Virus record (IMG/VR): IMGVR_UViG_3300010373_000083
Span: 1 to 40,337 of that record
Length of the DNA stretch: 40,337 nt
DNA from: a virus
Strand: one strand, 5' to 3'
The position numbers were made by a program, and so were the translations under genes. The notes below the pieces were generated by a model. The model did not search any database, had not been told where the DNA came from, and saw only the letters and a list, made by a program, of their open reading frames with translations. Below, one piece after another: positions 34,911 to 40,337 of the stretch (position 1 is the stretch's first letter; every line of letters begins with the position of its first letter).

Positions 34911-35462
34911 TCACTCCTTCTCGGGCTTCGGGGCTGCGGCGAGCGGATGCCAATGTGTGAAGTCGTCCGCGTTCCAGCCAAAATCGTTGCCGCCTTGATC
35001 TAGGAACTGGCCATCTTCGGCGTCGAGATGACCTGCGCAGGCGTCCCAGTAAAGAGCTTTTCCGTCGTTTCCATGCACCATGAGGCCACGAACGTGCATC
35101 GCTCCATCGTTCGGTGCTGATTCAATCGGAAGCCACCCATCCGGCACCCGCGCACTCGCCAGCATCGGCGCGACGGCTTTGAGGGCGGCGCGTGTCGCGA
35201 AGTCAAGTGCGTTAACAAGGTGCGATTCTTTTCCAGCGTGATACTGCTGCATTTCGTATTCGCCCATAGCTTTCGTTTGGGCTGCGTCGAATGCCTCAAA
35301 AATCTCATCCGTCACCCCCGTCTTCGCCGATTCGCGCTCGCGCAGGAGGTCAGCATAATTCGACGCCATCGAAAACAACTCGGCACGTTCGGCGACCGTC
35401 AGGGGATGACCGTGCATTTTTTGCAGGCTGCTACGCGCTTGTTCCGCCGTATATTTGCTCAT
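34911..35462 (-). CDS. DUF551-domain accessory protein, 183 aa
   Basis: A helical N-terminal half (MSKYTAEQARSSLQKMHGHP) is followed by a C-terminal DUF551-like domain: PDGWLPIESAPNDGAMHVRG, WDACAGHL and NADDFTHWHPLAAAP. DUF551 domains are common in phage accessory proteins; their function is not established. The next upstream feature may be a tiny coupled reading frame. Confidence 0.78.
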   Translation of the reverse strand: MSKYTAEQARSSLQKMHGHPLTVAERAELFSMASNYADLLRERESAKTGVTDEIFEAFDAAQTKAMGEYEMQQYHAGKESHLVNALDFATRAALKAVAPMLASARVPDGWLPIESAPNDGAMHVRGLMVHGNDGKALYWDACAGHLDAEDGQFLDQGGNDFGWNADDFTHWHPLAAAPKPEKE

Positions 35463-35512
35463 TGCATCACTCCCATGATTTCCAGGTCGATCTCGTCCAC
35501 CTTGTTGCGCAA
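35459..35512 (-). CDS. possible 17-aa coupled leader peptide
   Basis: TTG at 35512 with AGGA upstream encodes MRNKVDEIDLEIMGVMQ; its TGA overlaps the next ATG. It may couple translation into the DUF551 gene, or be chance. I rate it as weak. Confidence 0.22.
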   Translation of the reverse strand: MRNKVDEIDLEIMGVMQ

Positions 35513-35532
35513 GTGTTATCCTGCGAATTTGG

Positions 35533-35552
35533 GGTCTAATCAGGTGTTGGGC
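35533..35552 (+). other. possible attC half-site
   Basis: GGTCTAATCAGGTGTTGGGC resembles the right half of the attC-like sites nearby: an L-like box, a spacer beginning TCA, and GTTGGGC, a perfect GTTRRRY core. No matching left half is visible to its left. The stop codon of the 83-residue gene lies inside it, as at the next site. Confidence 0.4.
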
Positions 35553-35791
35553 GGCAAACTGTCGATCAGGCTTGATTCAAGGTTGCACACGTCATCCGCG
35601 CTTGCGTCGTCGTAGCAGCCCTTATGTGCCCGGTAGAAATAGCTGCGCCCGTCTCCCGGCTTCATCAGGCTGATAGCGCGCATGGGCCGGCTAAGCGGCT
35701 TGAGGCAATACGCACATGGAACGCCAAGGCCGGGATCAAATGCAGGGTTTTCCTGCTCCGGCGCATCAAAATATCCAAAAATCTCGGTCAT
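35540..35791 (-). CDS. hypothetical zinc-binding-like protein, 83 aa (cassette-like)
   Basis: ATG with GAGG upstream. MTEIFGYFDAPEQENPAFDP is followed by VPCAYCLKPLSRP and HKGCYDDASADDV, giving Cys-x2-Cys and His-x2-Cys, a plausible treble-clef zinc site. Similar small proteins are common in phage early operons. Its stop lies in the attC half-site and its start lies 20 bases from the R'' core of the full attC-like site. Confidence 0.72.
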   Translation of the reverse strand: MTEIFGYFDAPEQENPAFDPGLGVPCAYCLKPLSRPMRAISLMKPGDGRSYFYRAHKGCYDDASADDVCNLESSLIDSLPPNT

Positions 35792-35811
35792 GTTCGTTCC
35801 TCGTGTCTGCC

Positions 35812-35869
35812 GTCCAACAATTCGGTCAAGCGGAGCGCGTACCGCGCCCGCTTACCTCAAACGTTAGCA
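35812..35869 (+). other. attC-like integron recombination site 1
   Basis: 58 bp. R'' GTCCAAC (35812-35818, perfect RYYYAAC), 5-bp spacer, L'' GGTCAAGC (35824-35831), a short hairpin, L' GCTTACC (35850-35856), 6-bp spacer TCAAAC, R' GTTAGCA (35863-35869). L'' has one extra C against L', and the hairpin has one bulged A, the extrahelical bases that give attC its orientation. Left and right halves closely resemble those of the classical aadA cassette as I recall them. Confidence 0.75.
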
Positions 35870-36117
35870 CTCTTGTCCGGGTCATTCTCGGGCCAGTAGC
35901 CACATATCATCCGGCCCATGCCGCGCACTATCCGAAAGCGTCCATGTTCGGCCAGCAATTCGAGCGCCTCGCCGTTCGCAGAAATTGCGCCGCTGTCAGT
36001 CAGGCCCGGTTCTTTCGCATCATCTCCCGAAGTAAAACAGTGTTGCTCTGCCATCGCTTTCAGCGCGCCGAGCAGTTCATCGGTTTTCGCTTCGAGTAAT
36101 TCAATTGCGGTAGGCAT
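35857..36117 (-). CDS. hypothetical protein, 86 aa (between two attC-like sites)
   Basis: ATG at 36117 chosen for CGGGAGAA upstream. MPTAIELLEAKTDELLGALK, then an acidic loop and EALELLAEHGRFRIVRGMGR resemble a small phage accessory family. The last codons and the TGA stop are supplied by the L' to R' part of attC-like site 1, and the start lies 12 bases from the R'' core of site 2. The gene runs opposite to the attC orientation. Function unknown. Confidence 0.72.
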   Translation of the reverse strand: MPTAIELLEAKTDELLGALKAMAEQHCFTSGDDAKEPGLTDSGAISANGEALELLAEHGRFRIVRGMGRMICGYWPENDPDKSANV

Positions 36118-36129
36118 CGCATTCTCCCG

Positions 36130-36184
36130 TGCTAACACGTCATCCAAGCGGACGGCACGCCGCCGCTTAATTCAGGGGTTACCC
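36130..36184 (+). other. attC-like integron recombination site 2
   Basis: 55 bp with the same plan as site 1: R'' TGCTAAC (36130-36136), spacer ACGTC, L'' ATCCAAGC (36142-36149), hairpin with a bulged A, L' GCTTAAT (36165-36171), spacer TCAGGG, R' GTTACCC (36178-36184). The right half GCTTAATTCAGG is that of well-known class 1 cassettes from memory. The bases 36185-36269 hold no gene that I can support. Confidence 0.72.
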
Positions 36185-36269
36185 AAAGCGAGCCGGATCA
36201 GATCTACCGTTACTGACTCCACACCGGAATGCGTCCAACACGCACCCGGCCTGCATTCGCCCTGTAAGT

Positions 36270-40005: not shown

Positions 40006-40337
40006 CTACGCCGTAGCTTCGCGGAGCAGCTCCAACAGGTCCGCGGCTTCCCGCTTCCACGCCGCCGACCACGCCGACCGCGCCGCCGACCGCGCCGCCG
40101 CCGACCACGCCGCCGACTCCGCCGCCTCCGCCGCCGCCGACCGCGCCGACCACGCCGCCGCCGACTCCGCCGACTCCGCCGACTCCGCCGCCGACTCCGC
40201 CGCCGACTCCGCCGCCGACCGCGCCGACCACGCCGCCGACTCCGCCGCCTCCGCCGCCGACCGCGCCGCCGACTCCGCCGACCACGCCGCCGACCGCGCC
40301 GACCGCGCCGCCGACTCCGCCGACCGCGCCGCCGACC
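40006..40337 (-). CDS. Ala-rich repeat protein, C-terminal part (continues from position 1)
   Basis: This is the second half of the gene that starts at 670. The codon that spans the window ends uses bases 1, 40337 and 40336. The S-A-A-x repeats continue in frame and end in a non-repetitive tail, AAWKREAADLLELLREATA, before the TAG stop. That tail looks like a genuine amphipathic C-terminal helix, which argues that this frame is the real one. The two competing frames give Gly-Gly-Val or Thr-Pro-Pro strings; the plus-strand Thr-Pro frame has no start codon. Six bases separate the stop from the next minus-strand start at 39999, which fits a single operon. Confidence 0.82.
   Translation of the reverse strand, partial: SAARSAESAARSARSAAWSAESAARSAAEAAESAAWSARSAAESAAESAAESAESAESAAAWSARSAAAEAAESAAWSAAARSAARSAWSAAWKREAADLLELLREATA
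40060..40337. repeat. GC-rich coding microsatellite, right part
   Basis: Same repeat as at the left end, read on the minus strand as Ser-Ala-Ala-[Arg/Trp/Glu]. The two ends are not copies of each other, so they are not a direct terminal repeat. They read as one continuous tract of about 464 bp interrupted by the cut that made the window linear. Confidence 0.9.

Follow-up and report, generated by a model that had tools for sequence, protein, structure and literature searches.

The phage genome analysed here probably carries an integron cassette platform that lacks an integrase of its own and is served in trans by an integron integrase (IntI) of the host; the use of a host enzyme in trans is inferred and has not been shown. 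The virus record (IMGVR_UViG_3300010373_000083, 40,337 bases, referred to below as the window) contains T7-type head-tail connector, tail, terminase and major head genes, together with genes for a polymerase I type DNA polymerase, an exonuclease and a primase-helicase. The matches to T7-type portal and tail genes suggest that the phage is podovirus-like, in agreement with the label "podovirus" given in an earlier note on this sequence. The claim of the same note that no integron integrase is encoded also held. A search with the integron-integrase model TIGR02249 (E 0.001) found no integron integrase in the 40,337-base record, the completeness of which is unknown, and no tyrosine recombinase match in the window; the model also detects other tyrosine recombinases in control genomes. 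A phage-encoded intI was rejected for lack of a match in this search. Isolate phages showed no DNA similarity to the region, one search returning chance-level pieces only. At the right end of the contig the sequence consists of a degenerate tandem repeat of the CCGCCGACC type (positions 40057-40337), which is the likely cause of the assembly stop.

Both hairpin sites in the window are attC sites by sequence, structure and polarity, while cleavage of their folded bottom strands by IntI is an inference. Each is built in the order R'', L'', L', R', with its extrahelical bases confined to one arm; both contain the two that are classical for attC, a C in L'' and a bulged A, which read G and T on the bottom strand. 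The boxes of site 1 are R'' GTCCAAC (35812-35818) and R' GTTAGCA (35863-35869), those of site 2 R'' TGCTAAC (36130-36136) and R' GTTACCC (36178-36184). A covariance model trained on 24 bacterial attC sites of the Xanthomonadales and class 1 types, with phage attC excluded, was run over the whole window on both strands with filters off and recovered both sites on the plus strand (scores in the table below). On the minus strand site 1 reaches only 8.0 bits, and the model found no third attC in the window, the next best place scoring 13.1 bits (E 0.27). A sequence-only profile likewise assigns both sites to the plus strand. A gathering scan of the window with Rfam found nothing. A permissive blastn search against plasmids (E up to 10) matched both sites to attC of plasmid-borne arrays with intI, site 1 to one from Shewanella at 83% identity (E 5e-6) and site 2 to one from Diaphorobacter (E 0.03). 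Against class 1 attC, site 2 gives matches that are weak when taken alone (E 5).

The earlier note had placed two attC-like sites at these positions, described their boxes, paired arms, extra base and bulged A, and read both in the same plus orientation, and all of this was confirmed; the covariance-model search and the bottom-strand folds that it had suggested as checks were run and gave the values listed in the table. A correction concerns the 7-bp R'' and R' cores. The outer boxes pair only partly inside each site, and the perfect 7-bp complement spans the cassette, where GTTAGCA at the end of site 1 complements TGCTAAC at the beginning of site 2. That the sites would act as folded single-strand substrates for IntI is retained as an inference, since activity with an integrase is inferred only. 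The sole sign that IntI cuts them at G^TT is indirect and consists of exchange borders at AAC/GTT. The note had missed the attI-like site to the left of the array and the orientation of the genes, which is opposite to the attC polarity.

Features of the cassette array in the window (positions in the 40,337-base record)
Feature	Positions	Strand	Remarks
attI-like entry site	35513..35552	+	function inferred by homology; same block as intI-adjacent attI in Pseudoxanthomonas and Frateuria
Gene A, 83 aa	35540..35791	-	ORF with ribosome-binding site just inside site 1; function unknown
Cassette A (gene A + attC site 1)	35547..35863	+ (attI/attC polarity)	bounded by attI-like R box and site 1 R'
attC site 1	35812..35869	+	54.9 bits, E 5.5e-14; bottom-strand fold -14.7 kcal/mol, z -3.3
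Gene B, 86 aa	35857..36117	-	ATG at 36117; function unknown
Cassette B (gene B + attC site 2)	35864..36178	+ (attI/attC polarity)	R boxes GTTAGCA/TGCTAAC perfect complements
attC site 2	36130..36184	+	41.3 bits, E 7.3e-10; bottom-strand fold -10.5 kcal/mol, z -1.9; 3 edits from attC of phage contig L070
Outer array border flank	36185..36257		common to L104 and L002

The start of the array, read in attC polarity, is GTGTTATCCTGCGAATTTGGGGTCTAATCAGGT followed by the R box GTTGGGC (35546-35552), with the cut predicted after G 35546. Genomes of Xanthomonadaceae contain the same block some 200 nt upstream of intI, for example as CACCCCGAAATGGGGTCTATTAGGC followed by GTTAGCC in Pseudoxanthomonas sp. 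PXM01 and as GCCCCGATGTGGGGTCTAATAGGT followed by GTTAGCC in Frateuria. In these bacteria the block is the attI, as its position and an R box that complements R'' of the first attC show. By homology the corresponding segment of the window is an attI-like site, its function as attI being inferred. Its score of 12.2, which combines a matrix and a hairpin term built from 17 bacterial attI sites, falls in the top 0.15% of 10,049 GTTR positions in viral contigs. The site differs from the bacterial ones by one additional base between CTA and GTT, and the left arm of its hairpin is degenerate.

The final codons of gene A overlap the R box of the attI-like site, and it is the presence of that site that allows gene A to be counted as a cassette. 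Gene A has no PHROG or Pfam family, and its relative, 94% identical, was found in contig L002 only. The reading frame of gene B is confirmed by a 54% identical relative in the same frame in another phage contig (L075), where there is no attC. The definition of a cassette as a short gene plus attC with complementary R' and R'' within the unit is met by both, perfectly by B and in three of the four variable positions by A. With at least two attC sites and no integron integrase, the window qualifies as a CALIN. As regards a complete integron, intI is missing, an attI-like block is present at the array start, and the expectation that genes read away from attI (Pc) is not fulfilled, as both genes read towards the attI-like site. 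The locus is thus best described, with good but not full confidence, as an array of two one-gene cassettes with an attI-like start and no integrase.

If cassettes pass through circles, R' should complement R'' across a cassette, and if the sites are merely conserved hairpins, R'' and R' should complement each other within a site. Across cassettes of viral arrays, 81 of 109 pairs were perfect in the four variable positions, compared with 9 of 150 within sites, where random pairing gives 9%; none of 5000 permutations equalled the observed mean. Bacterial arrays yielded 204 perfect pairs out of 273 across cassettes. The complementarity across cassettes is the imprint of cassette circles, as in integrons, and a purely structural role of the hairpins is rejected by this test.

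The content of the array differs between related phages. Contig L002 is about 93% identical to the window over most of the shared genome (94% in the flank 36185-36257) and in place of gene B has an unrelated one of about 80 codons between the two attC sites. In L104, from another IMG/VR dataset, five attC sites and different cassettes, which also occupy the position of cassette A, lie between flanks homologous to window positions 35455-35561 (93.5% identity) and 36162-36257 (90%). Homology with both contigs is maintained up to the attI-like border, and homology with L104 restarts at AACACCTGATTAGACCCC, the GGTGTT border of the attI-like site, which coincides with the predicted integrase cut point. 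Site 2 of L002 is three edits from the window copy and one edit from an attC of L070, a phage contig with a baseplate gene, as expected if an attC moves together with the exchanged cassette. The possibility raised in the earlier note that would have refuted its reading, namely hairpins conserved in relatives with no moving cassette boundary, was not borne out. The locus is known from only three contigs in separate IMG/VR datasets, a search by flank pattern found no further variant of it, and among 67 loci found through relatives of the exonuclease only that of the closest phage, L002, has the attC sites.

The homology between the window and L002 ends inside site 1. There the inner 24-nt stem is identical to that of L002 (1358-1415) and the 10-nt spacers on both sides are unrelated; the window version of the site resembles an attC of the phage contig L081 (5 edits). 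Unlike spacers around an identical stem are not explained by a simple integrase exchange, and this observation counts against our preferred interpretation. A minus polarity of the array was initially assumed from the genes, as their stop codons extend into the boxes and the homology to L002 appeared to end at R'' of site 2. It was rejected because the breaks at attI-like sites, at the L104 borders and in several cassette pairs fall on the plus-polarity R', and it is also contradicted by the proximity of the L002 site 2 to the L070 attC.

Genes A and B share the leftward direction of the neighbouring phage genes and run against the attC/attI polarity. This inversion is common in viral arrays, where 68 cassettes are reversed and 25 canonical, the remainder being ambiguous (30 contigs to 6, with 36 called), whereas bacterial arrays contain 181 canonical and 23 reversed cassettes (37 contigs to 2, with 39 called). 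Sites were located with a sequence profile in bacterial arrays and with the covariance model in viral ones; gene calling was identical. Two of the six canonical viral contigs encode IntI. The reversed ORFs of 84 viral cassettes matched 61 PHROG families (E < 1e-4), including DNA methyltransferases (to 3e-55), dATP/dGTP pyrophosphohydrolase and nucleoside 2-deoxyribosyltransferase, and the canonical-strand ORFs of the same cassettes matched none; hence the reversed orientation is not an artefact of ORF calling. It is not universal in phages, since the Tetrasphaera phage TJE1, the best-known example, has the usual orientation at the attC that was read. The 95 phage cassette proteins gave a single match to a bacterial locus, and it lies in a prophage of the kind described here in Pseudothauera rhizosphaerae, whose genome also encodes a full IntI. 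A bacterial origin of the cargo was rejected for this reason.

Similar arrays were collected from dozens of viral contigs with a motif scan blind to gene orientation (GCTTGAAYGAATTGTTRG) and with the stem pattern of site 2, and the covariance model gives about 200 matches in these contigs. They carry terminase, portal, tail, baseplate, RecE and DNA polymerase genes. IntI was found in only two of the records, both with canonical gene orientation, and in none of the inverted arrays. Whole cassettes are common to unrelated phages at 84-93% identity (L076/L109, L103/L120, L082/L118) and others at lower identity (L101/L110, L079/L107). In L076/L109, L101/L110 and L079/L107 the end of the common stretch falls exactly behind AAC (G^TT when read in attC polarity), and for L076 and L079 it does so though one partner has no attC there. 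Array starts resembling attI occur in about ten further lineages. Of 72 loci returned by a scan for the attI pattern alone, 10 have a same-strand attC no more than 1.5 kb away, among them an array of ten attC sites (L331). In viral contigs most matches to this pattern are due to chance, 62 of the 72 loci having no attC in the vicinity, so that nothing but its co-occurrence with attC was used. The nearest neighbour of a viral attC was viral in 51 cases and bacterial in 29, with 26 ties, although bacterial attC were three times as numerous. The sample represents a single attC type, that of Xanthomonadales.

Several other features of these collections deserve mention. The records L115/L117 (IMGVR 2834908352_000001) and L077 (IMGVR 2927599553_000002) contain a full integron integrase with canonical cassette arrays and, judging by their appearance, are likely to be bacterial integrons or integrons beside prophages and not of the phage type. 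L070 (10410-11276) and L072 (8076-8131) apparently belong to one phage, being 98% identical over 5.9 kb; the cassette adjoining the array start is common to both and one contig has three additional cassettes. A phage attC array in L092 (IMGVR 3300048930_000661) has a reverse transcriptase gene (1400-2542; phrog_1423, E 1.8e-68) as a near neighbour, at a distance of about 450 nt. A bacterial attC array in Lampropedia puyangensis (L183, 5256-6333) has cassettes spaced about 190-230 bases apart that appear nearly devoid of genes and contain repeated similar filler sequence.

We propose that an integron integrase of the host, probably a relative of the Xanthomonadaceae, acts in trans on attC hairpins. 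These would fold from the bottom strand, which is the coding strand of the cassette genes, when it is exposed by phage replication or transcription. Excised cassette circles could then be re-inserted at attI or attC, also between phages in one cell. The phage operon would read the array from its far end towards attI, and the cassette genes may be inverted because only inverted cassettes would be expressed from it. The only direct support for the trans step comes from the published activity of IntI1 on some attC sites of other virulent phages (PMC9892861) and from the single prophage whose host encodes an IntI. Against this reading, recombination has not been observed, the host of the phage is unknown and its intI is assumed; the deviations of the attI-like hairpin from the bacterial sites and the small number of contigs with this locus also count against it. 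A bolder reading, towards which we lean only slightly, is that diverse phages maintain a cassette pool of their own, in integrase-less attI arrays of inverted cassettes whose coding strand is the recombinogenic one. Host IntI would serve these arrays in trans, and methyltransferases and other phage genes would pass between unrelated phages largely separately from the bacterial pool.

Among the alternatives, the least remote is that the attC sites are patches of homology at which phage or host homologous recombination between similar hairpins swaps genes, as has been suggested for the stem-loop linkers of T4-like phages, with no integrase involved today. The absence of an integrase from the phage, the similarity of attC stems between phages and the switch of homology within the site 1 hairpin between the window and L002 all speak for it. 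Exchange within stems, however, would not produce R boxes that are complementary across cassettes and unpaired within sites, would not end shared stretches exactly after AAC where a partner lacks attC (L076, L079), and would not place attI-like sites at array starts. We therefore consider it unlikely as a full account, although it could operate in addition to integrase exchange. It is less plausible still that the hairpins are terminators or RNA-processing or mRNA-stability elements between early genes that merely resemble attC. They are indeed intergenic and stable, and attC sites have been proposed to be weak terminators (PMC9892861), but their outer boxes pair within sites at the random level and are complementary across cassettes, the intervening genes change, the arrays have attI-like starts, and the sites are present in only one of the 67 exonuclease-relative loci.

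A phage recombinase not recognizable as IntI could also move the cassettes, given the many small genes of unknown function and a record that is possibly incomplete. This is very unlikely, as the window has no tyrosine recombinase match and the sites retain the full attC/attI form of host integrons. Equally improbable is an assembly chimera or contamination, in which a fragment of a bacterial integron was joined to a phage contig. The contigs are metagenomic and some IMG/VR records with attC arrays do contain full IntI and canonical genes (L115/L117, L077), but the same phage flanks occur in three contigs from separate datasets with different array contents, the gene orientation is opposite to that of bacterial arrays with the reversed ORFs matching phage families, and gene B has a phage relative without attC.

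With respect to known systems, attC clusters without intI in virulent phages are not new. The earlier note was unaware of attC pairs in lytic podoviruses; CALINs have already been published for the virulent phages TJE1 (Tetrasphaera), PH101 and P12002L (Qi et al. 2023, PMC9892861). Those resemble the present arrays in having attC pairs or arrays without intI in lytic genomes, methyltransferase cargo and some attC sites active with IntI1, but no entry site was reported for them and the orientation in TJE1 is usual at the attC that was read; the present arrays add the attI-like start, the inverted genes and the exchange at one locus between related phages. The sedentary chromosomal integrons of Xanthomonadaceae (Xanthomonas, Pseudoxanthomonas, Luteimonas) share the attC type and the attI block but encode intI, and their genes follow the attC polarity, as in the bacterial-array count above. 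The integron of the Shewanella prophage M16-3 likewise combines attI with cassettes inside a phage genome, and part of it has no intI of its own, but this is a cryptic prophage with a complete host-type integron, canonical by description (PMC9892861). In attG insertion (Loot et al. 2024, cited in PMC12444791) IntI also acts in trans to place cassettes outside the host integron; attG sites, however, are minimal and scattered, whereas phage arrays have a longer attI-like block that recurs at their starts. The stem-loop linkers of T4-like phages are intergenic hairpins that border exchangeable genes, thought to be exchanged by homology, and are not known to have attC architecture, R-box complementarity or attI. 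In the literature searched, which was mostly open-access and did not cover preprints, neither attI-like sites in lytic phages without an integrase, nor a systematic inversion of genes, nor the exchange of cassettes at a single phage locus turned up, and these three features appear to be new.

Integrons are regarded as bacterial gene banks and lately also as stores of anti-phage defences (papers cited in PMC12444791). If our interpretation is correct, the arrays described here would represent the phage side of integrons, where viruses trade their own genes through a bacterial system without possessing its enzyme. Since the sites are common to phages and bacteria and the gene polarity is opposite, the formation or the selection of cassettes must differ between the two, and the inversion offers a handle on the open question of how cassettes are formed. 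The interpretation also predicts that intI-positive hosts would be places where unrelated phages swap genes.
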